A stretch of DNA of 64,000 nt, from positions 186,001 to 250,000 of the forward strand of contig NZ_OBEJ01000002.1 of assembly GCF_900215575.1 (NCBI RefSeq), written 5' to 3'. Of the stretch, positions 1,356 through 53,694 are shown one piece after another. The notes under the pieces were generated by a model. It was not told where the DNA came from. It made no database searches and saw only the letters and a program-made list of their open reading frames with translations. The first letter of the stretch is position 1. Each line of letters starts with the position of its first letter. The DNA is from Natronoarchaeum philippinense (GTDB lineage: Archaea > Halobacteriota > Halobacteria > Halobacteriales > Natronoarchaeaceae). The position numbers were made by a program, and so were the translations under genes.

Positions 1356-1805
1356 ATGTCCGACGATCAGGAACCGGCCGAGAACATCAGCGGTGGCGCG
1401 GCCCGCGGCGGTCGTGCTGCGGCGTTCGAACCGGGCGACGCCGACACCCGCGCCGAGGCCGTCGTCGACCGGCTCGGCGAGCTGTACTGGCAGAAAGCCT
1501 ACGGCGGACGCGACGCCTTTGAGTGTCTCGTCCGGACGATCCTGAGCCAGAACACCAGCGACGTGGCGAGCCAGCCCGCTCACGACGCGCTGATGGAGCG
1601 GTACGCGCCTGCCGAGAACGCCGAAACCGGCAAAGACGCCGCGCCGACGCCGGACGCCGCCGAGCGCAGCTCGTCGAGCCCTGCCTCGACTTCGTCTCGG
1701 CAGGACGCCGACCTCGCCGCGGCGCTCGTGGCCGCCGACCGCGAGGAGCTCGCAGAGACGATCCGGCCCGCGGGATTGTACAACCAGAAGCCCTCAGTAA
1801 AGTAA
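1356..1805 (+). pseudogene. nth: Host endonuclease III, 5' fragment interrupted by the element
   Basis: This is the N-terminal part of the chromosomal base-excision-repair glycosylase/AP lyase. The family signature FECLVRTILSQNTSD is present. Host sequence runs to the att core at 1779-1789, encoding LYNQK. The frame then enters the element and stops after P-S-V-K. The helix-hairpin-helix, the catalytic Lys and Asp and the iron-sulfur cysteines are all missing here and lie 52.6 kb away at 54407-54889. The fragment should therefore be inactive. An insert of about 40 residues rich in Ala, Ser and Asp precedes the break. Confidence 0.93.
1779..1789 (+). repeat. attL core (11-bp direct repeat)
   Basis: TACAACCAGAA, identical to 54407-54417. 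It lies inside nth and encodes the Tyr-Asn-Gln-Lys of the protein. Left-flanking DNA is host nth; right-flanking DNA is element. Confidence 0.88.
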
Positions 1806-1848
1806 AGAAACATTATTTACGCCAGCGCATCAGCTTTCCGCCGCAGCG

Positions 1849-2472
1849 ATGGCGGAAACAACCCAAGTGAACGTCAAAGTCCCAGTCTCGATGAAACAGG
1901 ACTGGGAGAAGTACATCGAGGAACACGAGGAAGCCACATCGCTATCCCACCTGATCCGACTGTCGGTGCAGCGCGAGGTCAGTGGCGAGCGCGGGTCGAA
2001 CGTCGACATCGACCCCGAGGACGTTGAACTCGACGTCGACGTTGATTTCACGCAGTTGGAATCGAAGATCGATAACATCGACTCGAAGTTGGACGAGCTG
2101 CGGAGCGCGGTACACTCCCTTGAGGCCGCCGAGTTGACCGACACGGAAGATGTGCAGGAGATTGCGGACAAGATATACGACACGATGCCGCGTCGATCGG
2201 CGGAGACGGAGAGCAGAGAGCGCGACCTTTCGCCGCGCGAAATTGCGAGAATGAAGATTATCGATGACGTTGAGATGCGGATGGATCGCGGACAGTCCCT
2301 GAAGGACTTCGCGGAGCAAGAGAACTTCTACGGGCTGGTTGAGGCGTACAAATTGTACTTCGAGACAGACGACTACACGATGCAACGCGCCTTGGAACGC
2401 GTGCAGGAATACAGCAGCCGCGTTCACGTCGTGGACGATCTCGAATACACGGTTGTCTTCGAACAGGAGTGA
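1849..2472 (+). CDS. Ribbon-helix-helix-like protein upstream of the integrase
   Basis: A 207-residue protein. Its first 45 residues (TTQVNVKVPVSMKQDWEKYI, then SLSHLIRLSVQREV) match the beta-strand plus two-helix layout of ribbon-helix-helix DNA-binding domains. A short coiled-coil-like stretch (LESKIDNIDSKLDELRSAV) follows, then an acidic helical C-terminus. A TATA-like ATTATTTA lies about 30 bp before the ATG. It ends 7 bp before the integrase start, so the two form one transcription unit. Inference: it controls integrase expression or acts as a recombination directionality factor. The family is small-domain and function is not proved by sequence. Confidence 0.75.
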   Translation: MAETTQVNVKVPVSMKQDWEKYIEEHEEATSLSHLIRLSVQREVSGERGSNVDIDPEDVELDVDVDFTQLESKIDNIDSKLDELRSAVHSLEAAELTDTEDVQEIADKIYDTMPRRSAETESRERDLSPREIARMKIIDDVEMRMDRGQSLKDFAEQENFYGLVEAYKLYFETDDYTMQRALERVQEYSSRVHVVDDLEYTVVFEQE

Positions 2473-2479
2473 TCCACCT

Positions 2480-3496
2480 ATGAAGAACGTCACACGGGAC
2501 AAGTTCGATCACAAGATCAACTACGAGTTCTGCGTCGCGCACCGAAACAAGGTCGAAGAGGGCACCCTGACGGGGTATCGATGGACGGTCAAGAGCTTCC
2601 TTGAGCACATCGAGGGGGAGGGAGTTGACCTTGAAAACATCGACTGGACGGACATCGACTCGTTCATCGATTCGATGGTCGAGGAGTACTCGCAGTCCAC
2701 AACGAAGACAAGGTACAACCACCTCAGGTCGTTCATCAAGTGGCTGCGTGCCCGGAAGGGGTACTACACCGACTCCGAGCAGCTACCCATCGACTCACGC
2801 CATCTCGAAATCAAGGAGTACATCGACAGAGGGGAGACAAAAAAGGGGAACGAGGCATCATCAAAGGAAGGAGTCGTCTTCGTTGAGGCGGGCGAGTACG
2901 AGTTGCTGAAGGAAAACGTGCCGGCGCCGAAATTCAGAAACGAGTTGATTCTGAAAATGCTGTGGCATCTCGGCCTTCGGCGGATGGAAGTGACCGAGAT
3001 GCAGATCACGCCGGAGATGCCGCACAAGGACGAGTACGGCAACATCGACTTCGGTGACAACGAGATCACCGTCCCGGATGTCAAGGGTGGCGGACGTGAG
3101 CTTTGGTTCCGTGACTCGCTGGCCGCGCCGCTGCGGCGGTGGATCGAGTCGGAGCGTCAGGCCGTCTACTACGCCGACGAATCCCAGTACCTGTTCCCAT
3201 CGCGGAACAGCGAGCAACTCACCCCAAAGCGGGTCACGTCGATGGTCGATCAGGCCGCGCAGAACGCTGGAATACAGTCCACGGTCTATGTCGATGCCAA
3301 CGGCAACGAGCGACGGCGGATCACACCACACGCTCTCCGACACGGATATGGCGTCAGACACGTGCGGAACGGTACTGACGTGCGGACTCTCCAGCAGCTA
3401 ATGGGGCATCACGACATCAGCGTCACGCAACACTACCTACAGTTTAAAACAGAGGCGAGAAAGCGAGCACAGCACCGGAACGCACCCGAAGTGTAG
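2480..3496 (+). CDS. int: Tyrosine recombinase (element integrase)
   Basis: A 338-residue XerC/D-type integrase with an N-terminal SAM-like core-binding domain (about residues 1-90) and a C-terminal catalytic domain. Catalytic residues are visible: Arg in LGLRRMEVTEM (about 165), the HALRHGYGVRH box (about 283), GHHDISVTQ and the nucleophilic Tyr in HYLQF (about 317). The ATG at 2480 gives a normal length; upstream in-frame codons overlap the preceding gene. Its place 690 bp inside attL marks it as the enzyme that inserted the element into nth. Unlike the split SSV-type integrases, its own gene is not interrupted by attachment. Confidence 0.92.
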   Translation: MKNVTRDKFDHKINYEFCVAHRNKVEEGTLTGYRWTVKSFLEHIEGEGVDLENIDWTDIDSFIDSMVEEYSQSTTKTRYNHLRSFIKWLRARKGYYTDSEQLPIDSRHLEIKEYIDRGETKKGNEASSKEGVVFVEAGEYELLKENVPAPKFRNELILKMLWHLGLRRMEVTEMQITPEMPHKDEYGNIDFGDNEITVPDVKGGGRELWFRDSLAAPLRRWIESERQAVYYADESQYLFPSRNSEQLTPKRVTSMVDQAAQNAGIQSTVYVDANGNERRRITPHALRHGYGVRHVRNGTDVRTLQQLMGHHDISVTQHYLQFKTEARKRAQHRNAPEV

Positions 3497-3549
3497 TCAT
3501 TAGTCGTTTGTCTAATCGGTGTACGTCTACGCCTGCGACCTTGACAAGT

Positions 3550-4143
3550 TTATACCCGCTCAAGCCAGTCCGCCGCGCCCTGCATCTGATAGTCCCCACC
3601 GTCTGGCGTCGCGGTTAGACTCGCTTCCTCAACCACGTCCTCGTAATACCTCTCCGTCACGCTGAGATGCTCGAATCCATCCACATCGACGTGGATGTTG
3701 AGCGTCCCCATATCACCATCATCCGAGCTGATGTGGGTCTTCGTCTCCACCTCGCCACGAACCTCACGCCGAACCTCACTATCATTCGATGCCGCATCCA
3801 CGTCACCGAGCAGACCAGTCACAACCCCGCGTACCAGTACCTCGTCGCCTTCCTCAACGTCCTGCAGCACCTCGTACACGTCCTCGGGATTCCAAACCGT
3901 CGATCGCACGTCCACGTCCGCAACCCTGCCGATCACGTCCCCGTCATCCTCGACTCGATGACCGCCGAACACGCTTCGTAGCGTGATGAGCTTTTCACTG
4001 CGGAACGGCACGTCCAGCGCCATCATTCCATCTTCGGGGAACACGTCACGGATCACTCCCGAGAACTCGCTGCCGTCTTCCAGTTCGATGTCCGTGACAT
4101 CTCCGCGGTCGGCACTCCCAAGTTCAGAGACGTTCACCGACAT
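3550..4143 (-). CDS. Unrecognised acidic protein with N-terminal small beta-barrel
   Basis: A 197-residue protein converging on the integrase gene. Residues 14-60 (GDVTDIELEDGSEFSGVIRD, then LITLRSVFGG) have the spacing of an Sm-like or similar small barrel. A second barrel-like repeat follows (EEGDEVLVRGVVTGLLGDV). The C-terminus contains TLNIHVDVDGFEHLSV. The GDxVxΦELxxGxxFxGxV pattern recurs in the element protein at 45656-46033. No catalytic motif was seen. Function unknown; nucleic-acid or protein binding is a reasonable guess. Confidence 0.7.
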   Translation of the reverse strand: MSVNVSELGSADRGDVTDIELEDGSEFSGVIRDVFPEDGMMALDVPFRSEKLITLRSVFGGHRVEDDGDVIGRVADVDVRSTVWNPEDVYEVLQDVEEGDEVLVRGVVTGLLGDVDAASNDSEVRREVRGEVETKTHISSDDGDMGTLNIHVDVDGFEHLSVTERYYEDVVEEASLTATPDGGDYQMQGAADWLERV

Positions 4144-4243
4144 AACGGGCGGTGATATGGCGTCATCCCAGTTAAAAGTGAATCAACCGACAACTAGGGA
4201 GCGCAGCCACCCCAAAGCGCCGCCGAAGCGGCCCGGGGCGAAT

Positions 4244-4414
4244 CTACGCGGTTACGGGACTGGCCTCGCAACCGTGATCTTGTTCCCACGTCTCAACAGG
4301 GCCAACAGGATCACCTACGTAAACGAACTGACAAACACAGGACAGCACTTCCCGCCCGTCCAACTCACCGCGAACAACGCGAGCGTGACAGTCCGAGCAG
4401 ACGAGATCAGTCAT
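4244..4414 (-). CDS. Zinc-ribbon microprotein (56 aa)
   Basis: A short frame reading MTDLVCSDCHARVV and ending SPVTA. CSDC followed by CVC about 22 residues later gives a zinc-ribbon-like four-cysteine (knuckle) layout. A TATAA element (within TTTATAA) lies about 35 bp before the ATG on the same strand, supporting expression. Haloarchaeal elements carry many such one-knuckle proteins, often DNA- or protein-binding. The gene sits beside the putative origin region and reads away from it. Confidence 0.55.
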   Translation of the reverse strand: MTDLVCSDCHARVVRGELDGREVLSCVCQFVYVGDPVGPVETWEQDHGCEASPVTA

Positions 4415-5308
4415 CTCCTCACTTAAAAATGGGAGAGAGACAGTTATAAACCTCCCGGCTGAACGACATTTACCCCCGTTTCGTCTATTTCAAGTATGAT
4501 CTAACAATACGGTTAACAAGCGATTCCACCGCTGCCACTGGCTGACAACGTCGAGATCGGTGGAATCGGATTTGACTCCCGAGATCGTGTATGAGGCGTG
4601 GAAGGTGGCGGTGGTTTGGAGAGAGAAGGCGTTGTCAAACCCCTTAACAAGCGAACATCGACGTTTGAGGCGGGTGAAAACGCCGAGGAAGACATTTCCG
4701 TTCGTCGACTTCAAGACCGTGTGTGAGACGTGGAGAGTAGGGGTGGCGTGCGAGTCGTCGCCGCAGGCAAGGGATGTTCACTCTGACTGCTCAGTCTAAC
4801 TTTCCTCTCATTGAAAGTACAATGGAGAGGAACGGTTGGACTAGTGTTCACGGACGAAAGTGTTATTAACCTTACACACTTACTCTATCCCGAGAGGTTG
4901 TTCAAAAGCGAAGGGAAGGAAACAACGTCCCTTCCCGAGCGAGGCGCGAGGGCACCCCACCTTTCGACTCTCACACACGGTTTGAAAATCGATTTCTTAA
5001 TCCCGATATTTCTCGGTCGAGAGTGTCTGAACTGCCGGGGAACGCTTGTAAAGTGATCTAACAAGCGTCGTGAATCCGGGCCAGTCCCGTCCACCCCGGT
5101 ACTCTCTGCACTTCACACGCGGTTTTGTGACGAAAGGTTGAAACCGCCGATTCTGGTATTGATAGGGTCTAAATCGACGGAAATTGCTTGTTAAACGATT
5201 TGCCAAATTTAACTCGAAATAGACGAAATAACGCGAATCATAATCTGTTAAATCTGTCAAATCTTGGTAGGTCTTATAACCAAGGCGACATTAAAACCTA
5301 TTGCCGAA
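4415..5308. other. Gene-free, AT-rich, repeat-rich region; candidate replication origin
   Basis: No convincing gene lies in about 890 bp. A roughly 34-bp repeat occurs four times: twice forward (4581-4614, 4713-4746; core GTGTGTGAGACGTGGA) and twice inverted (4953-4984, 5092-5126). A TTAACAAGCG-like 10-mer occurs five times: forward at 4513, 4644 and 5058, inverted at 5043 and 5186. CGCTTGT and ACAAGCG at 5043-5067 form a hairpin, as do GGGAAGG and CCTTCCC near 4914-4936. The last 130 bp are very AT-rich. Iterons, an AT-rich tract and inverted repeats are the ingredients of a plasmid origin, but no recognisable Rep gene is adjacent. Confidence 0.55.
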
Positions 5309-6184
5309 ATGGGAAGTGGACTCAACGTCCCGGTCAACGACGACGACAGGAAGGAGCGACTCGAAGAATTGTTGGCCGCATCAAGTACGAGCACAAACAC
5401 CGACTTCGGCCGCCATCTCATCGACGCGGCTCACGAGATCTGGGAGCAGTCCGACGCCGAAGATCCCATCGAGGCTCTTCGAGATGCGGACGTGGATGGT
5501 GACGGTGGCATCGACTACGATCCCAACGAGCGCCGCTCAGAGAAGCTCGATGTAGAGACGATCCGGCGCATCCTTGACGAGCGCACCGAGCCAGCGATCA
5601 ACCCGCTTCACATCCCCGATGGCGCCGCCAACGAGCTGTACAACCTTGACGAGCGCATCGATCTGTGTATGGCGGCGGCCCGAGCGAAGTACGAGACGTT
5701 CGGGCGGGCGAGTGCGGAAACCATCGTAGTCCGCGTGCTTGGCCGGGGAAGCAACGATTACTACATCGACCCCGACCGTGCTGACGTTCCGGGAGAGATG
5801 GTTAACCGCGGGTTCAGCGAGCCACGACTGCCGACGGTTGAGCAGGATAAGGCGACGTACACGTCGTCTTCGGCGTATCTTCGGACGTGGGTTTCGCTGG
5901 TGAATCAGGTGTTGGAGTTGGACTTGGGTGATCTTAGTGACATCCAACTCGCCCGGTACTTCGGCGAGTCGGGGCAGAGTGCCGTTGAGATTCTCATCGA
6001 GCAGGGTGAGCGACTCTTGATTCTTCGTGATGGCTCGGAGGATATGATCCGTGACCTTATCGAGTCGCTGGAGCAGTTCAAGCGGGAGGTGGATGAGGAG
6101 GCGTTCAAGCGTGCGCAGGAACAGGCCAGTCGTGAGTACGAGAGTGCTGCTTCCCGTCTCGAAGTTGAGGAGGCCGAGGAGTAG
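5309..6184 (+). CDS. Unrecognised 291-aa protein
   Basis: A well-formed haloarchaeal gene of unknown family. The ATG at 5309 is preferred over an upstream TTG because TTATAA lies about 30 bp before it, consistent with a leaderless or nearly leaderless transcript. No catalytic or metal-binding motif is evident. The middle (SETIVVRVLGRGSNDYYIDPDR) and the C-terminal helical region, which is Glu/Gln-rich (FKREVDEEAFKRAQEQASRE), look like a compact domain followed by a coiled coil. It is the first gene downstream of the iteron-like region, so a role in element replication or maintenance is possible but unsupported by homology. Confidence 0.6.
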   Translation: MGSGLNVPVNDDDRKERLEELLAASSTSTNTDFGRHLIDAAHEIWEQSDAEDPIEALRDADVDGDGGIDYDPNERRSEKLDVETIRRILDERTEPAINPLHIPDGAANELYNLDERIDLCMAAARAKYETFGRASAETIVVRVLGRGSNDYYIDPDRADVPGEMVNRGFSEPRLPTVEQDKATYTSSSAYLRTWVSLVNQVLELDLGDLSDIQLARYFGESGQSAVEILIEQGERLLILRDGSEDMIRDLIESLEQFKREVDEEAFKRAQEQASREYESAASRLEVEEAEE

Positions 6185-6526
6185 GCCGTTTGAAACGCTT
6201 CTAACGTTCCGCACGTCTCTCACGTTCTGCACATCCGAAACCACGACTGGCTCGTTCGCGTGCGTCCGCACCTCGCCGCACATACAGAACGGAGCAGCGA
6301 CTTCTTCCTGCTCTGTGGCCAACTTACCGTGCCCGTCGTTGGTAACCGATCTGCGCGTCCAGCAGCCGCCCAGACGAGACGATCTGAGACTTGCGCGTGT
6401 GCATAATGCACGGCCGCAGGAGAGTGTTTTCCGCGCGGCGGCACACGCCGTGACGTCCGCTGCTCGACCTGTCGTTGATAAGTGGGCCACCAGTTGTTAT
6501 GAGTCTCCTTCACGTGTTCGTCAGTA
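6185..6526. other. Gene-free stretch with one TCGTTGGTAAC motif
   Basis: No gene is supported in this 340-bp gap. It holds one copy of the element-wide motif (6336-6346) and GC-rich inverted segments near 6427-6460. The downstream gene at 6527 is preceded by ordinary sequence with no clear TATA box. Confidence 0.5.
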
Positions 6527-7429
6527 ATGCGCGACGGCATCACTCCTGCAGAAGGCCCGTTTGAATCGGGCGATATTGTCCATATATCACCCACCGTGGA
6601 TGTGGATGGCCGTCCCCATCGCTACGCGTGCGAGGTCGAAGAAGTTCACTCGGGAGACAGTCTTGATGAGCACACCTACAGCGTGCGTTCCGTGGTGCAG
6701 GAGCGGACGTTGCGTCCTCGGTTCGGACACTACGACCTGATCCCTTCGCCCCGTGGCTACGAGAACATCGACGCTCTCCTCGGCAGCCGTCACGTCGACG
6801 GCGAGCGACTCCTCGGCAAGTTCAAGCGCCCGGATCTAGAGAAGATCAATGCCTGCCTGTCGGTGGTCGACCCCGACGAAGACCCGACGAAGGACTGGTT
6901 GAATGAGTTGGAGAAGAATGATGTTGACCGCATCAACTCGATTTTCGCCGAGCTGATCCTGCTCTACCATCTTCGGACGGCCTACGGGCGAGATCAGGTG
7001 GTGATGAATGCTCGCATCGATGGCAAGGGGTCGAAGGACTTCGACCTGCGTGTGCTGACCGAGGAGGACGACGTGTGGATTGAGGTCATGAAGCCGGATT
7101 ACGCGGCCAGTCTGCCCGACGAGGTTGGGTTCATCAGCGGTGATAAGACGGGGAACTCCATCGACAACAAGCTGAAGAAGAAATTCGAGGACGCACGTGA
7201 TCACGCGCCGGATGGCGCCGTGCTGGTTCTCGCCGCGTACCTCGAGGAGCAGATTACGCAGGGACTGGAGATCAGTCAATGGTTGGACGAGGACTACTAC
7301 GATGTCGGGGAGTTCTGTGATGGTTGGCTGACTTACACGCACCTGACTGAAACAGAGATCGGGTATCAGTCCTTCACAGAAGCCGGTGAGCGATGTCGGA
7401 CTCTGTTTGACCGGATGGTTGCGGAGTGA
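6527..7429 (+). CDS. Unrecognised protein with possible nuclease-like core
   Basis: A 300-residue protein. The N-terminus (FESGDIVHISPTVDVDGRP to HYDLIPSP) resembles an SH3-like barrel, and a similar barrel ends the protein at 21595-22476. The middle contains a helix (FAELILLYHLRTAYG) followed by KDFDLRVL and WIEVMKP. This spacing recalls PD-(D/E)XK nucleases, but the last motif is E-x-x-K rather than E-x-K, so the match is weak. Treat as unknown, with a possible DNA-binding or nuclease role. Confidence 0.55.
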   Translation: MRDGITPAEGPFESGDIVHISPTVDVDGRPHRYACEVEEVHSGDSLDEHTYSVRSVVQERTLRPRFGHYDLIPSPRGYENIDALLGSRHVDGERLLGKFKRPDLEKINACLSVVDPDEDPTKDWLNELEKNDVDRINSIFAELILLYHLRTAYGRDQVVMNARIDGKGSKDFDLRVLTEEDDVWIEVMKPDYAASLPDEVGFISGDKTGNSIDNKLKKKFEDARDHAPDGAVLVLAAYLEEQITQGLEISQWLDEDYYDVGEFCDGWLTYTHLTETEIGYQSFTEAGERCRTLFDRMVAE

Positions 7430-7432
7430 GAC

Positions 7433-7903
7433 CTATATCCCCAGCTCGGTTATCCCGGCGGCGATGAACGCGGCACCGTAGTTCTCCCCGTTGATGCGCC
7501 GGCGGACGATGGCGCCTTCCGGCAGACAGTCGTGAATGGTGAACTCGTCGGTGCTGTATCGGCCCTTCCCATTCAGCGCCCTGACGCCTCCTTCGAGGAT
7601 CACTGGAGTGAGCGTGGTTTCGCGCCCTTGCTCGTCACTCGGCCCTGTCGGTGCTTCGAGGTCGCTGAAGTCCTTGTAGTAGTCCGGGACGGCGATCTTG
7701 CCCCGGGAGTGCCCTTCGATGAAGTCGTCGACGCGGTTTGGCGGTGACGTGACCAGTCCGATGGTGCGTGGCTTGTCGGTGGCCTCGGTCTCTCCCTCGG
7801 TGTTCATTCTGACTGTCAGCGCAGGCGTGAGATTGTCCAGCGTTGTCGGTTCTGACCAGTCGATGTTGTCGTGGGGCAGTTCATCGTTCCACGCGGTGTG
7901 CAT
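7433..7903 (-). CDS. Five-copy element protein family, member 1 (divergent)
   Basis: A 156-residue protein related to the four genes at 32736, 34214, 34927 and 35585. Shared blocks are W-x-DELPH near the start, IGLVTSPPNRVDDFIEGHSRG, IAVPDYYKDF, RALNGKGRYSTDEFTIHDCLPEG and a final AAFIAAG. It is the most diverged copy, and the only one on this strand and away from the 32-36 kb cluster. No cysteine pair or catalytic residue is conserved apart from the DC of the FTΦ(Y/H)DCL block. The family is not one I recognise. Confidence 0.7.
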   Translation of the reverse strand: MHTAWNDELPHDNIDWSEPTTLDNLTPALTVRMNTEGETEATDKPRTIGLVTSPPNRVDDFIEGHSRGKIAVPDYYKDFSDLEAPTGPSDEQGRETTLTPVILEGGVRALNGKGRYSTDEFTIHDCLPEGAIVRRRINGENYGAAFIAAGITELGI

Positions 7904-8214
7904 ATCCGGGTGCTGTTACGCGTTTTTGATAGGTGCTGTGCTCCCCCCGGTCGTTGGTAAGTCCTTCGCGGGGTGCTGACCCCTTTCATCACGGGGCCCT
8001 TCGGCCCGAGACTTTCACTTCGATAACGGGGTGTTCCCCGGCTCGCGAACCCGCTGTGATCCCACCCGGGGGATGTCCTATTGGGCTTCTAGTCGATTCC
8101 GCCGCTGGCCGCAAATCCCCCGGCAATAATCCCGTATATTTGTGGCCATAGCCGGCAGTTGCCGGATGTTCTGCCGAGTGATTTATTCACCGTCGTGAGT
8201 GAGTTATTAATGTA
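7904..8214. other. Gene-free stretch with motif copy, hairpin and promoter
   Basis: No gene supported. It contains TCGTTGGTAA at 7951-7960, a GGGCC-CTTC-GGCCC hairpin near 7994-8007, and a TATA-like TGATTTATTC about 30 bp before the GTG at 8215. Confidence 0.5.
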
Positions 8215-10207: not shown

Positions 10208-10837
10208 TCACGAGCGGAACATTGCTTCGACACCATCACCGGTATCGGCGTTCTCCTCATCCTGACAGGGACAAGTCAGCGAATCGGCGAGCAAGTCGAG
10301 AACGTCGTGCCGCCGGTTGCAGTTCCCACACCTGACCTTGAGTTGAACGCTGGCCGAGGGTTCATCGATCTCGACTTCGCCTTCCCGGGCAAGACGTTCA
10401 AGCGACCCCTCAATGACGTTGGCAAATCGTGTTCGCATCTTCTTGATCTGTTGGAGATCGCGCTCCGGGTCAGGGGAGTAGTCGCGGCTAGTGTCGGCGT
10501 TGAGGCACGATTTCAGGTGCTTCAACACGGTTCGATAGGAGACGAAATCCGACGTAACCTGTTCGACATCCACGCCCGCGTCTCTCAGTTCGAGCTTCGC
10601 CTTGTCTTGAGCGGAGTCCATCACTTCATCATCGGTCAACAACCTGTGGTAGTTCTCTTCCTCGCCATCCAGAACAGTCATTCCAGCCCGCTCCATCGCT
10701 CGCCGAAGCAGTTGTTGGTTGATCCACGTCTCCAACCTTCTCACACCCACGTCACCGGTCTCGTAGCGATGGCAGAGTCGCTCGTCAAGGTTGTACAGGT
10801 CGTACTCGTCCCGGACTCGATCAACCTTGCAGGTCAT
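10208..10837 (-). CDS. RdfA-like protein (rod-determining factor family)
   Basis: A 209-residue protein with the pattern of the haloarchaeal RdfA family: start CKVDRVRDEYDLYNLDERL, then LETWINQQLLRRAMERAGM, LLTDDEV, a linker and SDFVSYRTVLKHLKSCL. Near the C-terminus CGNCNRRHDVLDLL and CPC supply a zinc knuckle. In Haloferax volcanii the chromosomal member is required for rod-shaped cells; paralogues are common on plasmids. Here the role is unknown and may be regulatory. The family call rests on remembered sequence pattern. Confidence 0.65.
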   Translation of the reverse strand: MTCKVDRVRDEYDLYNLDERLCHRYETGDVGVRRLETWINQQLLRRAMERAGMTVLDGEEENYHRLLTDDEVMDSAQDKAKLELRDAGVDVEQVTSDFVSYRTVLKHLKSCLNADTSRDYSPDPERDLQQIKKMRTRFANVIEGSLERLAREGEVEIDEPSASVQLKVRCGNCNRRHDVLDLLADSLTCPCQDEENADTGDGVEAMFRS

Positions 10838-11882: not shown

Positions 11883-13769
11883 CTAGTTGTCGTGTCGGGT
11901 CAAGCAGTACGGTAATCCAACGACTTCAACGGCTTCGACGTCCGGAGCCTTGATCACTGCCTGCCCTTTCCCGAACTTCGGAATGTCACGGCTGTAGCCC
12001 CGCGGCACCGAAGGCACATCCTCAACGACCTCCTCACGCAGATGGAGAAACACGTTCGTGTTGGTCTGTTTCAGGATGTCTCCGTCGATGTCCTCGGGAT
12101 TCTGCGTGATCATCATCAACCCGAGCTTGTCCTTGCGGCCCTGCTTGGCCGCCTCCCGTGCCCGCCCGACGATGTAGGCCTCTCGGACGTTGTCCGGACT
12201 CGAGAAGTAGTTGTGCGCCTCGTCGACCGCCACGAGCATCGGCGTGCGCTTGACCGCCGAATCGACATCGAAGTCGTCGATCTTGTTCTCGATGATGTAC
12301 GAGAGGATCGACAGCACGACGAGGTACTCCTTCTCGCCGCGAAGGTGGCTCGTCGGGATGACCGTGACCTGCCCCTCTCGGAAGAGCTGGTCACTGACCT
12401 CGGGAAACGGATTCGTCCCCGTGTCGAACACGTCGAAGTAATCGGCCTGCTTGGTGCGCCGCCAGACGGCTTCCCACGTTCCGTCGCCGATGCTGTTCCG
12501 GTCGCGGAGTGGACTGTTCGAATCGTCGTGCTCACCGAGGAACTCGATGAAGTCCTTGTACCGGGGATCGACGACCGACCGTGAGGGCCAATCGTCGTTC
12601 TCGTCATCGAAACAGCTGAAGTACGCGTCGATGCAGTCGGTGATGGCTCCCTGCGTGACGTCCGACATCTGATCGAACGGCATCAGCAGGCGCGGCTCGT
12701 CCTGCACGACCGAGAACGGAATGGTGAGTTGCTGGCTTTCGTCTGTCGATGGACTCCGGGTGCGATCGACCTCGGGGATGAACACCTCCAAGTCGTCGAC
12801 GCCATCGAACTCGATATTCTGTCGGCGGAGCTTCCGGCGTTGATCGTCGGTCAGCTCCGGATTGTCGTCGCGCATCTCCCAGTACTCGTTCTCGGGGTCG
12901 AAGACGACGACGTTGAGACGACTGCGCTCCATCTCGCCCTCCCCGACATCGACGGGATACCGCTTGCCGCTGACGAACTGCCGAAGCAGATTCTTCGTGA
13001 AATGGGTCTTGCCGGCGCCGGTCGATCCTGCGACGAGCGTGTGTCTGAACACCGCCGGCTCACCGTCTTCGATCTCGCTGGTATCGGGATCGATGCCGGG
13101 ATTCTGAATGTAGTAGGGGAATTCCTCGCCGTCGATCTCCATCGCATCGCCACCCACGGAGAGGTAGCCCGCGAAGATCCCCTCCTTCGGGATGTTGAGT
13201 CCGGTGCGGAGATAATCGTCATCTCGTGAGAGGCTGACCGGCGTGTTCGGCTTCGGAATGCGGTTGACGACACCGCGCTCAAGCTCGTCTCCCTGTTGAC
13301 GGAGGATAGCGATGGGCTCGAGTTCGGCCACGAGGACGAACTCCGATTCGTCCAGTTCGCGCTCGCGGCTGATCTGATTGTGTGTATCCGACTTGTCGTC
13401 GAGTTCGGTGTACGGCTCGTACCGGAGGCCATCGATGACGGAGAACAGCTCGTCGTCGCTGCTCGGATAGGGGATCTGAACGTAATCCCCGACACGCACA
13501 GCATCCCGATGATCGGTTGTCACGAACGCGTTGACGTTGTATTCGCTGCGGGTGACGTGAATTTCCTCACTCGCGAGGACGTGACCGATCTCGCCCTCGT
13601 CTGCGTCCGTCGTCGCGCTTGACACGGATGCCTCCGGAATTGCAGTATCCGACCCGTCGTCTATCTCCGTATCGCTCTGGTCGTCTGCCCCGACATCGCT
13701 TGCCTGTTCAGATGTCTGTTCGCCTTCGATCGGATCGTTTTCGAGCACGTCGTCTACGTTATCGGTCAT
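11883..13769 (-). CDS. herA: HerA-family DNA translocase ATPase
   Basis: A 628-residue HerA/FtsK-superfamily hexameric ATPase, last gene of the mre11-rad50-nurA-herA operon. The N-terminus is acidic, followed by a HAS-barrel region (IGHVLASEEIHVTRSEYNVNA). Walker A is GSTGAGKTHFTKNLL (about 248), Walker B MLVAVDEAHNYF (about 510), with a sensor-like MMITQNPEDID after it. The ATG overlaps the nurA stop (ATGA). HerA pumps duplex DNA to the NurA nuclease, in concert with Mre11-Rad50 end processing. A copy on a mobile element suggests a defence or element-processing role rather than housekeeping repair. Confidence 0.9.
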   Translation of the reverse strand: MTDNVDDVLENDPIEGEQTSEQASDVGADDQSDTEIDDGSDTAIPEASVSSATTDADEGEIGHVLASEEIHVTRSEYNVNAFVTTDHRDAVRVGDYVQIPYPSSDDELFSVIDGLRYEPYTELDDKSDTHNQISRERELDESEFVLVAELEPIAILRQQGDELERGVVNRIPKPNTPVSLSRDDDYLRTGLNIPKEGIFAGYLSVGGDAMEIDGEEFPYYIQNPGIDPDTSEIEDGEPAVFRHTLVAGSTGAGKTHFTKNLLRQFVSGKRYPVDVGEGEMERSRLNVVVFDPENEYWEMRDDNPELTDDQRRKLRRQNIEFDGVDDLEVFIPEVDRTRSPSTDESQQLTIPFSVVQDEPRLLMPFDQMSDVTQGAITDCIDAYFSCFDDENDDWPSRSVVDPRYKDFIEFLGEHDDSNSPLRDRNSIGDGTWEAVWRRTKQADYFDVFDTGTNPFPEVSDQLFREGQVTVIPTSHLRGEKEYLVVLSILSYIIENKIDDFDVDSAVKRTPMLVAVDEAHNYFSSPDNVREAYIVGRAREAAKQGRKDKLGLMMITQNPEDIDGDILKQTNTNVFLHLREEVVEDVPSVPRGYSRDIPKFGKGQAVIKAPDVEAVEVVGLPYCLTRHDN

Positions 13770-15046
13770 AGTTCGGGATCCTCCTCGATGTCGCTCCAGC
13801 GGCCATCCCAATTGTGGTCGTACGAGTATTCCGTGCGCTCGATCATATCGCGTATCGTGTCTCTGTTCTCCCGGCTGATGCGGGCGAGCCGGTCAGCCCG
13901 GTGAATCGCACGGGGCACGCCGCGCCGTTGAGCGATCTCCTTGAGCGCCTTCAGCCGCATCTGCTCGCGCATATCCTCGTCCTTTACCATCAGATACGGC
14001 GCCTCGATGCGCAGCAGGTCACCCGTCTTCGGCAGTCGCACGTAGCAAAACGCCCGCCGATACGCCTCGGCGTCACCGTGTCGTCCCCGGCCCGATATCG
14101 GTTCCAAGGCCTCGACGTGCTGTCCTTGAATCTCGCGAGACTGTTGCACGAACCACGAGGTGTAGGTGAGGTACTCCAAGTCGTCGAACCGCAGCACCTC
14201 GGACATAAACTGGTGGTCGCGCGTCCACGGCACGCTCACCAGTCGCCCACTGTCGTCACGGATATTGTGGCTGGCAATCTTCTCCCGGAGCGACGACAGC
14301 AACTGCGACAGGGATGACGTCTTCACGATGCCGATCACGGGCTGGTCGCGCTCGTACTGCCGGTCGATCACCTCGATATAGTTGCCGACGATGTCGGCGG
14401 GCACGTCCCACGAGCCCGCCGGCGAGCGGCCGCCGGTGTAGTCCAGCAATAACCAGTAGACGATTCCCAGCGGCAAAACGGCACCATCGAGAAAGAGCGG
14501 GCCGTCGACGCTCTCGACCGAGGCGAGCGCCTGCCGACTCTCGCTCATCCGCTGTGCAACGGACGCAACCGACTTTCCGATGTTTCGCGGTTCCTTGGCC
14601 GGCTGCGGGAAGGGGATCAGCTCTGCTGTCACATTATCGCCATCGAAGGTTTGGGCGTGCAGCGTACTGTCATCGTCATCGAAGTATGCGACGCCCGTGA
14701 TGTGTCCGGTACGCTCGATCTCGCCGCCGTCATCATTCCCCGCGACAGCAGTCTTCGCATACGCGGTGTCGACGACGAGCCCATTATTGTACTCGATGGG
14801 GCGAGTCGTGCCGGCGTCGACCCCATATGTAGCTCCCGCCCACGGGTCGTCGCTCCACGTTCCGAGTTCATCGATGCGCGTCCGCCAGTACTGCGGCTCT
14901 CCGATGGCCTCGACGTGTCCGCCCTCGCGAGCAAGTAATTCGAACAGCTGGCGGGCGTGATCGGCCTGCGAGGTCGGCTCACGCGGCACGGCCTGATCGA
15001 CCGCCTCGAACATCTCTCGCACGATGCCGAGCGATTCCGAGTCCAT
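13766..15046 (-). CDS. nurA: NurA-domain nuclease
   Basis: A 426-residue protein with NurA features: YGVDAGTTRPIEY (metal Asp), GPLFLDGAVLPLGI (second Asp), VIGIVKTSS (Lys), and the C-terminal RVEAPYL-like RIEAPYLMVKDEDM followed by VPRAIHRADRLARIS. NurA is a toroidal 5'-3' exonuclease/endonuclease that works only with HerA. Here it lies directly between rad50 (stop at 15049) and herA (4-bp overlap). The extra N-terminal 100 residues are acidic. ATG 15046 is chosen because it follows the rad50 stop by two bases. Confidence 0.85.
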   Translation of the reverse strand: MDSESLGIVREMFEAVDQAVPREPTSQADHARQLFELLAREGGHVEAIGEPQYWRTRIDELGTWSDDPWAGATYGVDAGTTRPIEYNNGLVVDTAYAKTAVAGNDDGGEIERTGHITGVAYFDDDDSTLHAQTFDGDNVTAELIPFPQPAKEPRNIGKSVASVAQRMSESRQALASVESVDGPLFLDGAVLPLGIVYWLLLDYTGGRSPAGSWDVPADIVGNYIEVIDRQYERDQPVIGIVKTSSLSQLLSSLREKIASHNIRDDSGRLVSVPWTRDHQFMSEVLRFDDLEYLTYTSWFVQQSREIQGQHVEALEPISGRGRHGDAEAYRRAFCYVRLPKTGDLLRIEAPYLMVKDEDMREQMRLKALKEIAQRRGVPRAIHRADRLARISRENRDTIRDMIERTEYSYDHNWDGRWSDIEEDPEL

Positions 15047-15048
15047 CG

Positions 15049-18000
15049 TTAGTCCGCCCCCGCCGTGTTCATCGTCACTCGGCTGGTGTTTGTCGTCTCG
15101 TCGATCTCGACGCGGCACGCGTGGTCGGCGCCGTGGATGAGCGTTTCGTCGTGGGAGACGACGATGACCTGCGGCACGTCCCAGTCGCGAATGCGGTCGA
15201 GCATCTCCTCGAGCTGATCGACGTGCCCCTCATCGAGGAACGTCGTCGGCTCGTCGAGGATGAACGGCGGGAGCCGCCCGCGGTCGCCGCCCTCCAGCTC
15301 GGCGATGAGCTTGTAGATGCCCGCGCGAAGCGCGAGGTTGACGATGGCCCGCTCGCCGCCGCTGGCGTTGCTCGGATCCTCGGTCATCCCGTCATCGCGC
15401 AGGAGCTGGATGTCGTAATCGTAACTGTTGCTGCGCTCGTCGTAGGTTTCGCTGATGACCACGCGCTGGTAACTGCTGTTGCGGTAGATCTCTTGGAAGA
15501 TGTCGTTCGTGTACTCGTTGATGTAGGCGAGGTACTCCTCGCGGAGTTCCGACTTGACCGTCTCGTAGACGGAGATGGTTTCGTCCAACTCGTCGTGGAC
15601 TTCCCTCGCCCACTCGGTCTTGCGCTCGTACGTGTCGATCTTCTCCTTCAGGTCACGCAGATTTGACAGCTCATTCCGCAACTCCGCACGCTCGTCGCGG
15701 AGCGTCTGCACTCGCTCCTGTAACTCGTCGCGCGTTTGCTCGCGCTCCTCGATCTTGTCCTCGACCTCCTCGAGCTTCTCTTCCAACTCCTCAATATCGG
15801 TGTCACCGAGTCGTTCCGTGAGGTCGTCACGCTCGTCGCGAAGCGTGGCGAGCTGCTCGTTGAGATTCTCGATGGTTTCGCGGTAATGCTCGATATCCTG
15901 CTGCTCGTTCGCTCGCTCGGATTCTCGGTCGTCGATCTGCTCGTAGAGATCGTTGATCTCCGCCACCGTCTCCTTCGTCTCTTCGAGGTCAGCAACGTGT
16001 TCCGCGGCCTCTTCGAGAGATCCTTCGCGCTCGGCAACGGTCTCCTTCTGTTGGTCGATATCTGCTTCCAACTCCTCGATGCGCTCCTCCACGTCCTCGA
16101 TCTCGCTTTCCACGGTCTCGCGGTCGTCCTCGAGGTCTTCTATCTCCGACTTGATGTCCTCAACCTGTTCGCGCTTCTGTTCGACGCGCTCGAAGCGATT
16201 GGCGAGCGTCTCGCCGGTCTCGATTTCCTCGACCACCTCATCGCGGTCGGTCTGGAGTCCGTCGATTTCGTCTTCGAGATCGTCGATCTCTGCCTCAAGG
16301 CCGTCGATAGTGTCCTCGTGGCTCTCCAACTCCTCTTCAAGATCGGCGATTTCCTCTTCCAGCTCGGATTCTCGCTCCCGAAGCTCGTCGAGATTCTCCT
16401 TCGCTGCTTTCACCTCGTCGTTCCGGAATTCGATGAGGTCGAGAACGTCGTCGCGTAGCGCATCTATTTCGTCGCGCGTTTGTTCCAGCGACTCGCGCTC
16501 GCTTCGAGCGGCCTCCAACTTCCGGGTGATCTCGTCCAACTCGGATTCGATCTCCGCAACTTCGTCCTCGATATGGGTCTCATCGACCGGCTGCTTGCAG
16601 CGGGGACACTTGCTTTCCTCCTCAAGCTCGCGCAATTCGTCCAAGTCCGCGTTGCGTTGCTCTCGTTGCTGTTCAAGCGCGGCGATTCGGTTGTCAATCT
16701 CGTTGTACTCCTCGCTCACGTCTGCACGCAGGTCTGGCAACCGCTCGTTGGCCGCCGTCTCCAACTCATCGGCCGCGAGGTCGATGTCGTGTTCCGTCGC
16801 GCGGGATTCGAGCGACGAGAACCGCGACTCGAACTCGTCGACAACCTCGTCGACGCGCTCTTCGGCGTCCTCTATGTCGGCCTGCAGCGCGTCCAGATCG
16901 CTCTGTCGCTCCTTTAGCTCCTGCTCGCTCTGCTGGGACTGCTCGCGCTCCTCCTCCAGATCGCTCTGTCGCTCGTCGAGAGTGGTCTCTCGTTGGGCCA
17001 ACGTGGTCTCGATGTCGTTGCGCTCGTCCTCGAGGTGGTCGATTCGCGCCTCAACGTCCTCGATGGTCGAGGCGTCCACGTCGGCCGTTGATTCTGGCCC
17101 CGGGAGAAACTCGACTGCCAACTCATCCCGATCGTCGATGGCATCGTTGAGTTCGTCCTCCGCCTCGTCAAGATCGGTCTGGCGACCCCCGATTTCGGCC
17201 GCGATGTCGTCGCGCTCGTCACGCAGTTCCGATAGCTCGTCCTTCGCATCTGTCAACTTCTGTTCGAGGTCGTCGAGTTCATCTTGAGCCTGCTCCAGCG
17301 CATTCTCCCGGTCGTTTGCCTCGACCGAGGCGTCCTGCAGTTCATCCTGCACGGTATCGAGCGCATCAGCTGCGGCGTCCGCTGTGCTGGCGTCGTAATC
17401 AACGGAATCCGCGAGTTCCTCGATCTCGTCTTCCAGCTCGTCGATTTCGTCGTTCAGCTCCTCGATGCGCTCCTCGCACTCCTCGATTTGGCGTTGCTTG
17501 CGGTTGCGCTCCTCGGTGGTCTCCTCGATCTGCTCCTCTTTCTCGGCCTTCTTTTCGGCCACCTCCTCGTAGGAGTCGATGTCCGCTTCGACCTCGGCCC
17601 GCGCGTCTCGGAGCTCATCGAGGTAGTCCTCCACGTCGTCGATCTTCCCCTCGACATCACGAATTTCCTCGTCCTTTGCTGCGATTGCCTCCTCGAAGTC
17701 CTCCTCATCGCGGTCGAAGTCCTCATTGAGTTCCGAGCGGCGCTCGTCCGCGCTGTCGCTGTTGCGGGTCTGGACGCGTCCCGCGCCACGCCGCGCCATT
17801 TTCATTCGCTCGATGTATTCGTCGATCTCGTCAAGGCCGAGCAGCCCGTCAATCATCTCGGCGCGGTCGCTCGCCTCGATGAGACGATCGATCTCACCCT
17901 GCTTGACGTACACCGAACTGGCGAAGTCCTCCTCGTCCATACCGAGGATGCGAGATATCTCGCTGCGGACGTCCCGGATGCCCGACACCGGACTGGACAG

Positions 18001-18321
18001 GGATGCCGATGTCAGCGTGGCGTCGTTCGGCGTGCTGGTGGTGTAGATCTCCCACTCGACGGTGTACTCCGTGCCGGCAACCTCGAAGGTGAGTTCGACG
18101 ACGCCCTTGTCCTCGCCGCGGCGGACGAACTCATCGAGCGCGAAATTGTTGGTGCCGACGTTCCGAATCTCGGAAAGGAACAGGCCGCCGAACACGCCCA
18201 TCAGAAGTGAGGTCTTGCCTGCGCCGTTCTCCCCGTGGATGAGGATGGTGCCTTCGGGGAAGTCAACTGTCTGATCGGCGTAGCTGCGGATGTTCTGGAG
18301 ATGCAGTTGCTTGATTTTCAT
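15049..18321 (-). CDS. rad50: Rad50-like SMC ATPase
   Basis: A 1090-residue Rad50, longer than typical archaeal copies because of an extended coiled coil. Walker A is GENGAGKTSLL (about 32), the zinc hook is CPRCKQPV (about 572), the ABC signature is NASGGERAIVNLALR (about 990), and Walker B with D-loop is FILDEPTTFLDEGH (about 1023). Two long Glu/Arg-rich coiled coils flank the hook. The ATG overlaps the mre11 stop (ATGA), so a stoichiometric complex is likely. The antisense strand contains long serine-rich open frames that are by-products of the repeated coiled-coil codons. Confidence 0.95.
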   Translation of the reverse strand: MKIKQLHLQNIRSYADQTVDFPEGTILIHGENGAGKTSLLMGVFGGLFLSEIRNVGTNNFALDEFVRRGEDKGVVELTFEVAGTEYTVEWEIYTTSTPNDATLTSASLSSPVSGIRDVRSEISRILGMDEEDFASSVYVKQGEIDRLIEASDRAEMIDGLLGLDEIDEYIERMKMARRGAGRVQTRNSDSADERRSELNEDFDRDEEDFEEAIAAKDEEIRDVEGKIDDVEDYLDELRDARAEVEADIDSYEEVAEKKAEKEEQIEETTEERNRKQRQIEECEERIEELNDEIDELEDEIEELADSVDYDASTADAAADALDTVQDELQDASVEANDRENALEQAQDELDDLEQKLTDAKDELSELRDERDDIAAEIGGRQTDLDEAEDELNDAIDDRDELAVEFLPGPESTADVDASTIEDVEARIDHLEDERNDIETTLAQRETTLDERQSDLEEEREQSQQSEQELKERQSDLDALQADIEDAEERVDEVVDEFESRFSSLESRATEHDIDLAADELETAANERLPDLRADVSEEYNEIDNRIAALEQQREQRNADLDELRELEEESKCPRCKQPVDETHIEDEVAEIESELDEITRKLEAARSERESLEQTRDEIDALRDDVLDLIEFRNDEVKAAKENLDELRERESELEEEIADLEEELESHEDTIDGLEAEIDDLEDEIDGLQTDRDEVVEEIETGETLANRFERVEQKREQVEDIKSEIEDLEDDRETVESEIEDVEERIEELEADIDQQKETVAEREGSLEEAAEHVADLEETKETVAEINDLYEQIDDRESERANEQQDIEHYRETIENLNEQLATLRDERDDLTERLGDTDIEELEEKLEEVEDKIEEREQTRDELQERVQTLRDERAELRNELSNLRDLKEKIDTYERKTEWAREVHDELDETISVYETVKSELREEYLAYINEYTNDIFQEIYRNSSYQRVVISETYDERSNSYDYDIQLLRDDGMTEDPSNASGGERAIVNLALRAGIYKLIAELEGGDRGRLPPFILDEPTTFLDEGHVDQLEEMLDRIRDWDVPQVIVVSHDETLIHGADHACRVEIDETTNTSRVTMNTAGAD

Positions 18322-19484
18322 TCGTCTGTCACCTCCGTTGGAGTCGCTTCGGCAGCCTCATCGAACGCCTCGGCCTGTGCGTCCATCACCATCTCCTCGA
18401 CCTCGTCGTCGAAGCCCGATGGAGCCACGCCCTCGGTGCGCACGCGCTCGTCGATCTGGGCGGCGATGTCGCTGAGATCCTTCTCTGCGAGCTTCTCCTC
18501 GATTCGCCTGTCCTTGTTCTGCACGTCGCCGCTCGGGCCGTCCGAGGTGTCGATTTCGGGGCCGCCCCGCTCGTCATCGACGCAACAGACCGCCGCACCG
18601 CGATCCATAACGATCCCGCGAACGTCGCTCGAGGTGACCGAATTCGACTCCCCGACCACGGTGACGAGAACGACCTTTTTCTCGACAACGTGGCGATCGA
18701 TCTCGTCCTCCGCGTGACCGTAGCTATCATCCTCGGTGAAGTTGATCGTGATCGTCTCGAAATCCCGCGTGTCCAGTTCTTTCTGCCGACGCGTCAGCTC
18801 ACCGTTCTCGATTTCGAGGAGACTGACGCTTCGAGACGCATCCTCGTCCACCGCGCACCGTTCCGTCGACCCGGCGTACCAGACTGTCGTTCCCCGTTCG
18901 ACAGTCCCGACGGACTCGTGATAATCGCCGAGCGCAAGCGCATCGAGGTCGAGATTCAAGCGGTCGAGCACGTCCTCGAGGGGATGTTCGGCCTGAATCT
19001 CCGGAACCGGGGGCTGGAGGAGTTGATGCATACAGAGAATCGTGAAGACGTCCTCCGGAGGCGAATCAAGTGTGAAGTCCTCGGCGTGCCACGCCGGCCG
19101 TGTCACGGCGTCGATGCCGTAGATGGCCACCTCGTCGTTGATGAGAGTTGGAGACGTGTCGAGACGCTCCGCCGCTCCGGTCTTGCGGATGAGATCGAGG
19201 TATTGGTCGTCCATCTTGCGCTCGTGATTGCCGACGATGCCGTAGAAGGGGATGTCGGCGGCGTCGAGCGACTGGAGGATGTCGATGCAGCGGTTCAGGT
19301 CTGGCAATCGGGGATCCCGCGTGTCGAAGAGGTCTCCCGTGTGGATGACGGCGTCGACATCTTGGTCGATGGCGTATTCGATGGCCTGCTCGAATGCGTC
19401 CGCGAAGTCCTCTCGGCGTGTATCGCTCCCGTACTGGCGGTTCCCGAGGTGAGTGTCGCTGACGTGGAGGAGCCGTGTAGTCAT
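18318..19484 (-). CDS. mre11: Mre11-like nuclease
   Basis: A 388-residue calcineurin-like phosphoesterase with all Mre11 motifs: HVSDTHLGNRQYG, HTGDLFDTRDPR, YGIVGNHERKMDD, CMHQLLQPP and ALGDYHES; the last is GDxH as in other haloarchaea. The C-terminal third is acidic and probably binds Rad50. First gene of the four-gene operon, with promoter DNA shared with the divergent Kiwa genes. Mre11 cuts DNA ends and hairpins with Rad50. The operon probably duplicates functions the host already has. Confidence 0.93.
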   Translation of the reverse strand: MTTRLLHVSDTHLGNRQYGSDTRREDFADAFEQAIEYAIDQDVDAVIHTGDLFDTRDPRLPDLNRCIDILQSLDAADIPFYGIVGNHERKMDDQYLDLIRKTGAAERLDTSPTLINDEVAIYGIDAVTRPAWHAEDFTLDSPPEDVFTILCMHQLLQPPVPEIQAEHPLEDVLDRLNLDLDALALGDYHESVGTVERGTTVWYAGSTERCAVDEDASRSVSLLEIENGELTRRQKELDTRDFETITINFTEDDSYGHAEDEIDRHVVEKKVVLVTVVGESNSVTSSDVRGIVMDRGAAVCCVDDERGGPEIDTSDGPSGDVQNKDRRIEEKLAEKDLSDIAAQIDERVRTEGVAPSGFDDEVEEMVMDAQAEAFDEAAEATPTEVTDE

Positions 19485-19705: not shown

Positions 19706-20296
19706 ATGACGACCAATAAGGGTGGATTGAAAGATTGGGCGAAGTGGCTGCTCTTCTTTAGTTCCTACTTTCCGCTCTACGTCATCATCGCCGTCAAGAC
19801 CCGGACGTCGAACTTTGACTTCCTCCTCTTCCAGACGCCCGTGTACCACCTTGCCGGGTACAAGCTCTCGCTGGTCTCGGCCCTCTTTCTGGTCTTCGGG
19901 CTGTTCGTTCTCGCCTTTCTCTACGTGGTTGTCCGATTCAAGCGAGCGGAGAACGGGCAACCCAAAGAAGTCGGCGAGCCGGCTGAGCGGAACGAGCTGA
20001 TCATCACGTACATCCTCGTCCACGTGGTTCCGTTCGCCTTCATTAACTACTCGAAGACCCTGAACCTTCTCGCATTCATCTTTCTCTTCCTCTCCATCGG
20101 GATCATCCAAGTTCGGTCGTCGTACCTCTATGTCAACCCCATCCTGTCGGCGATGAGGTACGACCTGTACGAGATAGAGGACGCCGACACGCGAGGGCAG
20201 ATGTTGCTGGTCAAAACCTACGAACACGCCAACTCCGAGGAGACGACGGTCACAGCAGTGGAGTTAAGTAATGATGTCTACATAACGACCAGTTGA
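19706..20296 (+). CDS. kwaA: Kiwa defence membrane protein KwaA
   Basis: A 196-residue membrane protein with four predicted helices: LLFFSSYFPLYVIIAV, LVSALFLVFGLFVLAFLYVVV, ITYILVHVVPFAFINY and LLAFIFLFLSIGIIQV. The SYLYVNPILSAMRYDLYEI block matches the conserved NPxL segment that follows the last helix in KwaA. Its stop overlaps the ATG of the next gene (TGATG), and that gene has the KwaB pattern, so the pair is a two-gene Kiwa system. KwaA senses phage infection at the membrane. A TATA-like AATTATAG lies about 40 bp upstream. Confidence 0.8.
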   Translation: MTTNKGGLKDWAKWLLFFSSYFPLYVIIAVKTRTSNFDFLLFQTPVYHLAGYKLSLVSALFLVFGLFVLAFLYVVVRFKRAENGQPKEVGEPAERNELIITYILVHVVPFAFINYSKTLNLLAFIFLFLSIGIIQVRSSYLYVNPILSAMRYDLYEIEDADTRGQMLLVKTYEHANSEETTVTAVELSNDVYITTS

Positions 20297-23316: not shown

Positions 23317-23356
23317 ACCTGTACGTGACAGAGGCAGGATATCAGCGTTCCGCCAG

Positions 23357-24262: not shown

Positions 24263-24416
24263 ACTGACAGGATACATGCTGGGTTGATATCTTTTTATGT
24301 GAGGACTGACGTCGTCGGCGCCGAGACGATGCAGTCAGATAGATACATACAGGATGAGGCGGAACATCGGAGCAACGTGATCCTTTACGCTTTGAATCCT
24401 GTTGGAGGGCGATATT

Positions 24417-26570: not shown

Positions 26571-26571
26571 T

Positions 26572-27474: not shown

Positions 27475-27581
27475 CCGAAATATCCCTCTTTTCACTCGCT
27501 TCGAGACCCCTGCTGTAAAACGCACTGGTGTCATCGCGGCGAGACACAAGCATCAAGAGTCGACAGGCTTATCAGGGAAGT

Positions 27582-36667: not shown

Positions 36668-36688
36668 GTTCCACAGGAAAGGAAGGGG

Positions 36689-36820
36689 TCAGTCTTCGTC
36701 TTCTCCGACCTCGCCGCGGGCAGCTTTTCCAGCCGCCTCGACCATTTCCTCTACTGTGTCCAAATCCACATCTGCTTCTTCGGCGATCTCCTCTGCCGTC
36801 ATCACGTGTTCACGGGGCAT
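36689..36820 (-). CDS. HTH-like microprotein (43 aa)
   Basis: A short frame starting MPREHVMTAEEIAEEADVDL and ending GEVGEDED. The AEEIAEEADVDLDTVEEMV part fits a helix-turn-helix core. Codon use is typical. No TATA box is evident; the 24-bp repeat lies past its 3' end. Confidence 0.5.
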   Translation of the reverse strand: MPREHVMTAEEIAEEADVDLDTVEEMVEAAGKAARGEVGEDED

Positions 36821-53465: not shown

Positions 53466-53694
53466 GGACGCACAGAAAATCCATCAGCAACGACCCATAC
53501 TGCAAGAGACGCTCGCTACCGCTACGCGACCGAGGTGTGAGGGCCAACTAAAGACGAATGCTCGCGGTTGATGCGTTCCTCGTCCTCCTCGCTGAGAGCG
53601 TAATTGATCGTCATAGTGGCACGGTAGGCCGGCCGGCATCTAAGTGCTCCCAACCGCTCGTTGGCAATCGCGACTGCGAATCGGCGCATCGAAT

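Follow-up and report, generated by a model that had tools for sequence, protein, structure and literature searches.

A symmetric array of two-part repeats as a candidate orphan replication origin of a haloarchaeal element integrated in nth

INTRODUCTION

Haloarchaeal replication origins have been found mostly through the orc/cdc6 gene that adjoins them. Does an integrated element of Natronoarchaeum philippinense carry an origin that lacks that mark, as a small repeat array next to the gene for a candidate initiator? According to excerpts of the main survey, origins without an adjacent orc/cdc6 gene or classical ORBs are possible but hard to predict (PMC3528665). The array lies in a 64 000 bp stretch of the genome (the window), where the original prediction described a candidate origin with inverted iteron pairs. 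It sits on an island with restriction-modification, Kiwa-like and HerA-NurA-Rad50-Mre11-like genes, and the backbone to which it belongs is common to two families of the order.

RESULTS

The element and its integrase module

An element of ∼52.6 kb (53 kb when rounded) is integrated in the nth (endonuclease III) gene and splits it, leaving its 5′ part on the left-hand side and its 3′ part on the right-hand side. The acidic proteins, the TBP and RdfA genes and orc loci whose ORBs have a G-string suggest a halophilic archaeal host. The attachment core TACAACCAGAA occurs exactly twice in the window, both times on the plus strand, as attL inside the nth 5′ part (1779–1789) and as attR at the 3′ part (54407–54417). 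At the right end of the element lies an HhH-GPD (Nth-like) gene (53644–54375), possibly a replacement nth copy brought by the element.

The left end holds the integrase module. The companion of the integrase, a 207-aa protein (1849–2472, plus strand), reads by eye as ribbon-helix-helix (RHH) in its N-terminal part and then as coiled coil; it matched no Pfam family above cut-off, and relatives are present in 78 of 392 genomes. The tyrosine integrase follows (2480–3496, plus strand; Pfam Phage_integrase, 6e-23). Two genes on the minus strand come next, for a 197-aa protein with a possible OB fold (3550–4143; weak, below cut-off) and for a 56-aa CxxC/CxC (zinc-ribbon-like) protein with no Pfam match and a leaderless promoter (4244–4414; TATA 4444–4450).

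Architecture of the dyad

Between the divergent genes 4244–4414 (minus strand) and 5309–6184 (plus strand), just inside the element (∼2.7 kb from att and 1 kb from the integrase stop), window positions 4479–5228 (∼750 bp) form one imperfect dyad. It consists of 17-bp outer inverted repeats, four ∼120-bp composite units, two forward and two inverted, and a hairpin at the centre. All four ∼34-bp repeats that had been described are present (forward at ∼4580–4613 and 4712–4745, inverted at ∼4957–4990 and 5100–5133), as are the five 10-mers with at most one mismatch to TTAACAAGCG (4513, 4644 and 5058 on the plus strand, 5043 and 5185 on the minus strand). The repeats are real and more ordered than the original prediction had them: the 10-mer box and the 34-mer belong together in a single two-part unit, and the natural borders of the array are those of the dyad. 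Each unit joins a TTAACAAGC-like box to a CGTGTGTGAG-type core with start-to-start spacings of 73, 74, 73 and 73 bp, which stay constant although the intervening sequence varies, and a G-rich stretch ends the cores. In the alignment of the four units 28 of 125 columns are invariant and mean pairwise identity is 0.51.

Reading from the left, the outer repeat TTTCGTCTATTTCAAGT (4479–4495, plus strand) is followed by unit U1 (4502–4625, plus strand; box 4513–4522, core from 4586), unit U2 (4633–4757, plus strand; box 4644–4653, core from 4718) and the central hairpin (4793–4842; 20-bp stem, 6-nt loop, DNA z −3.2). Then come the inverted units U3 (4940–5062, minus strand; box 5043–5052) and U4 (5086–5204, minus strand; box 5185–5194) and the right outer repeat TTTCGTCTATTTCGAGT (5212–5228, minus strand). 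The fifth box copy is an extra forward box, CTAACAAGCG (5058–5067, plus strand), outside the symmetry. No further copy of the outer repeats was found in the window at up to three mismatches, and the dyad is single-copy in its own genome.

The stretch is gene-free, as had been claimed, in that only ORFs judged to be chance occur in the array. A 79-aa ORF across U1 and U2 was rejected as coding because the differences between the U1 and U2 cores are mostly amino-acid-changing and the inverted copies shift the frame. A reading as an RNA gene was rejected as well: Rfam gave no match at E ≤ 1 over 3500–6400, and the strong fold-back energy (RNA z −7.8) follows from the dyad itself and is therefore not counted.

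Raw dyad scores misled in GC-rich coding DNA and were recomputed as z-scores. Local alignment of one arm to the other scores 91, compared with a mean of 24.7 (SD 3.5, maximum 39) for 200 dinucleotide shuffles. Leave-one-out profiles refind the omitted unit in every case (E 7e-9 for U1, 2.4e-8 for U2, 1.6e-6 for U3 and 9.2e-10 for U4), their best other match in the window being at E 0.1. With up to one mismatch the 10-mer occurs seven times in the window, five of them within the array (1.4 expected from window shuffling). The largest such 10-mer family in the array has five members, where shuffles reach six and other 861-bp stretches seven. The 10-mer is unremarkable as a stand-alone family and significant only within the composite unit.

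Unstable DNA and divergent promoters

The original prediction called the whole stretch AT-rich. This holds for 5150–5300 (AT 0.64–0.68) and less so for 4800–4899 (0.56–0.58), and fails elsewhere in 4450–5149 (40–52% AT). The AT rise in the middle of the dyad is weak, and the strongest instability lies at its right edge. At lengths of 60, 100 and 150 bp alike, the stability minimum of the element falls within 5151–5300, adjoining the array, and the 100-bp minimum (5180–5279) is a candidate duplex unwinding element. This DNA doubles as the promoter of the 5309 gene, at the dyad edge rather than the centre. TATA elements at 4444–4450 (minus strand) and 5274–5279 (TTATAA, plus strand), each ∼33 nt before an ATG, stand just outside the 17-bp outer repeats.

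A second copy in another family

The module at 1710–7996 is matched at 96.5% over 6.3 kb in a genome from another family of the same order (G394). There it contains the RHH, integrase, 3550, 4244, 5309, 6527 and 7433 genes and the dyad, with all reading frames intact, including the small 4244 gene. The integrase is listed as 100% identical, and the DNA of the 3550 gene is 99.5% identical. Further blocks matched between the window and G394 lie at 9.0–10.2 kb (70%), 21.6–22.5 kb, 29.6–31.8 kb and between 32.7 and 43.8 kb. In the compared G394 stretch the greater part of the remaining 8–29 kb has no counterpart, and this part includes a cassette of HerA-like, NurA-like, Rad50-like and Mre11-like genes (11883–19484, minus strand). 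Since the module is common to both while the cargo differs, the dyad belongs to the backbone of the element and the HerA-NurA-Rad50-Mre11-like genes to its cargo. One att core was found in G394, and the right end of this copy was not located.

Over 4440–5300 the two copies differ at 49 of 861 sites with zero indels. The differences are spread over the outer repeats (1/34), boxes (1/50), cores (8/136), rest of the dyad (27/530) and flanks (12/111), and fall on 2 of 112 sites in invariant unit columns versus 25 of 379 in the other columns (Fisher P 0.058). Judged by these counts the dyad, including the 34-bp cores as a whole, is not specially slow-evolving. At all four differences in unit columns 81–93, G394 has the base that most of the other copies carry; its left outer repeat is the perfect 17-bp partner of the right one. 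This direction of change, toward the consensus, is suggestive, the numbers being small; across all unit columns there is no trend toward the majority base. The exact box-spacer-core pattern occurs three times in G394, once in the genome of the window (G000) and zero times in the reversed control. The central 65 bp (4781–4845), with the hairpin, are identical, which is unremarkable, as the longest identical run (83 bp) has P 0.28. The stretch corresponding to the unstable DNA ranks only second or third in instability in G394.

The 5309 gene

The gene to the right of the array (5309–6184, plus strand) encodes a 291-aa protein of no known family, a candidate cognate DNA-binding protein or initiator. 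It gave no match in Pfam, PHROG, NCBIfam or PADLOC, the AlphaFold model had no usable fold (mean pLDDT 48), and a PDB search with the predicted structure gave no match below E 1.3. Relatives were confined to its own genome among 392 genomes of the order and to G394 (98%) among 146 genomes of that family; plasmids, viral contigs and genome contigs searched had none. A single match among 170 genomes of another family was rejected as chance, as it overlaps a glycosyltransferase-like ORF. These genome sets overlap one another. The protein is as narrowly distributed among the searched genomes as the dyad. Its position beside the dyad, its promoter within the unstable DNA, its retention together with the dyad and its equally narrow distribution make the 5309 product the closest candidate for an initiator.

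Searches for further units, initiators and ORBs

The original prediction had named as evidence against itself the same repeats upstream of unrelated genes; no second full-length unit was found in 392 genomes of the order. Besides the four units, the unit profile hit 33 genomes with one weak partial match each (E 0.003–0.05; ∼20 expected), and these form no cluster. Searches with the dyad DNA gave only short matches outside the locus within the family (17–33 bases, E ≤ 1), only seven short matches at E 0.8 among plasmids, and none among phages. Scanning genome and viral contigs by integrase alignment gave no match, but G394 exists and was missed in this way, so absence from these scans means little.

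It had also been claimed that no known Rep or Orc1/Cdc6 gene is adjacent, and Pfam indeed recognised no initiator, nor any other replication gene, among 59 scanned ORFs of the window. The same ORFs included no ParA, ParM or ParB family member and no relaxase above cut-off; DUF7845 had no Pfam match among them either, in a Pfam set that may lack a model for it. The nearest orc/cdc6 gene on the contig (C2), and the only one listed there, is ∼570 kb away, at 761965. A classical ORB origin was rejected on the scores of an ORB matrix built from 12 ORBs of four orc loci (G000 and a related genome, G246), which gives −4.9, 2.9, 1.9 and −8.4 for the four cores and 23.1 for the best site in the window. 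The unit profile had no match in 14 orc-locus stretches. The best site is a single strong ORB-like one at 36669–36690 (the next best in the window scores 15.0). G394 has an ORB-like site of 15.8 in the corresponding gap (L147:12026), where no second ORB and no orc gene was seen.

A sister element and other integrase loci

Of the elements of another kind, the closest is that of G246. It measures 16.9 kb, occupies the nth core site used in the window (2876 and 19766, L053/L054), and has a 62% integrase and a similar-looking small CxxC ORF in the position of the 4244–4414 gene. At the corresponding gene-poor place it has a dyad with a 35-bp inverted repeat (97%) whose left arm lies within a 480-aa ORF. 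Its GATTCCCAAA inverted iterons are unlike those of the window. They surround the least stable 100 bp of that element, and the region ranks first in instability at 100 bp, fourth at 60 bp and second at 150 bp. Separately, four 28-bp direct repeats that are ORB-like lie farther along, with no orc gene in the element; their core occurs in the 14 orc-locus stretches of G000 and G246 zero times exactly and once with a mismatch. These ORB-like repeats, four to five in one orientation, lie at L053:8031–8493, and another strong ORB-like site is at 9957.

Among 38 loci with the integrase module, five have a dyad at z of at least 18, the other 33 lying at or below 11.4. Four of the five are near the integrase (the window, G394, G246 and G369) and one is distant (L060). 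The layout appears typical of the nth-site elements seen (three of three, two of them orthologous) and not of the whole integrase class. The G369 dyad is unrelated: it is a fold-back of 900 bp next to the integrase (L063:13936–14833, RNA z −9.7), contains nested inverted repeats and a central hairpin, and is repeated in part 3.5 kb away. The L060 dyad, near 2700 and far from the integrase, has z 54.

DISCUSSION

In iteron origins a repeat-bound protein complex opens adjacent unstable DNA. Our leading reading, to which we give a little less than even chances, is that the dyad serves the element, once excised and circular, as an orphan origin of the iteron type, possibly one with a new initiator. 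The four two-part units would be bound by a sequence-specific protein, most probably the 5309 product; their spacing, fixed at about seven helical turns, suggests that one protein, or two that touch, sits across box and core. Their 2+2 inverted order points to a symmetric nucleoprotein complex that these proteins would assemble, and the position of the least stable DNA next to the array suggests that 5150–5300 would open for the host replication machinery. The symmetric array, the unstable DNA, backbone conservation together with the 291-aa gene and the analogous sister dyad speak for the original prediction of an origin, which we take to be partly supported. Against it speak the lack of a haloarchaeal-type ORB in the dyad and of a recognisable initiator or ParA among the scanned ORFs, and a layout that suits a bidirectional regulatory region as well. 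The origin reading is also weakened by cores that evolve no more slowly than the rest of the dyad, by unstable DNA that coincides with the 5309 promoter at the dyad edge and ranks lower in G394 and at two of three lengths in G246, and by the unusable fold model of the 291-aa protein; an integrated element, besides, has no need to replicate by itself.

The main rival is a bidirectional operator or enhancer, through which a regulator (the RHH protein, the zinc-ribbon protein or the product of 5309) would control two divergent leaderless promoters and coordinate excision or maintenance genes. It accounts for the symmetry nearly as well, and the outward TATA elements beside outer repeats that are unique in the window fit it. 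To our knowledge, however, archaeal operators are far smaller than a 750-bp array of four units with 73-bp internal spacing; no other gene of the element is preceded by a full copy, and the instability maximum and central hairpin are left unexplained, so we regard an operator as improbable, if a serious contender. The array could also act as a centromere-like site for partition, with its adaptor encoded by the neighbouring gene: the repeats are clustered, and the product of the small orphan gene next to them is predicted to form a long C-terminal helix. The lack of ParA, ParM and ParB families among the scanned window ORFs makes this quite unlikely.

A part in recombination or transfer, as accessory integrase or excisionase arm sites or an oriT, draws on the nearby integrase stop, the fold-back with its central hairpin and the G369 RHH-integrase element, whose 900-bp fold-back lies 0.1–1 kb from the integrase. 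We think it very unlikely, given the distance to att, the lack of a relaxase above the Pfam cut-off and a dyad near the integrase in so few of the scanned loci. Highly improbable, finally, is a decayed fold-back or MITE-like insertion without function: it has terminal inverted repeats and the fold-back energy on its side, but a single genome copy, no target duplication seen by eye, indel-free retention in G394 and unit cores at or nearer the consensus there against it.

Four described systems come closest to the locus. Bacterial theta-plasmid iteron origins have arrays of short direct repeats. They resemble the locus in joining a repeat array to adjacent unstable DNA and an adjacent orphan gene, but the units here are long, two-part and 2+2 inverted, and a known Rep family is absent. 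Haloarchaeal orc/cdc6-ORB origins (oriC1, oriC2 and plasmid origins), as excerpted in PMC3936714 and PMC3528665, resemble it in having inverted repeats in intergenic DNA beside a possible initiator gene, and perhaps in the AT-rich DNA near these repeats; the cores of the dyad also end G-rich. The dyad, in contrast, lacks a nearby orc/cdc6 gene, has low ORB-matrix scores and is built of two-part units with 73-bp spacing. Because two tested features of this class failed, we do not file the dyad there, though it may work alike; excerpts of PMC3936714 report that Cdc6 initiators supplied in trans act on haloarchaeal origins even when the initiator gene is left out of the clone. The Rep-Arvir/DUF7845 rolling-circle replicons of archaeal viruses and plasmids have one short hairpin where the locus has a large iteron dyad. 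In haloarchaeal integrative elements of that kind the integrase end matters for replication and the hairpin acts in cis, according to excerpts of PMC13107129. Replicating ICEs such as SXT/R391 (PMC4489591, in excerpt) are alike in that an integrated element may replicate when excised, but are bacterial and have relaxase/oriT and ParMRC-like functions, none of which was found in the window element. Titles and abstract openings, with most subscription papers outside this coverage and PMC8371274 included in part, describe no such element or two-part 2+2 array.

A bolder proposal, which we consider doubtful, is a new type of archaeal origin that is independent of Orc. Its four two-part iterons, 2+2 inverted around a hairpin, would be read by the 291-aa 5309 protein as a member of a new family of initiators. 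Islands with defence genes could then replicate once excised, and origin modules could be exchanged among elements that use one common att site.

Several other genes of the element may be recorded. A Rod-determining factor A (RdfA) family gene lies at 10208–10837 (Pfam 1e-55), and within 19706–21345 there is a KwaB-like gene preceded by one for a small hydrophobic protein, which could, as a guess, be a KwaA counterpart. Restriction-modification genes occupy 22483–27549 (XamI-like nucleases at 23357 and 26572, an AccI-like one at 22483 and an Eco57I-type methylase at 24402). An extra TATA-binding protein gene follows at 27993–28535 and has a 70% counterpart on the G246 element.
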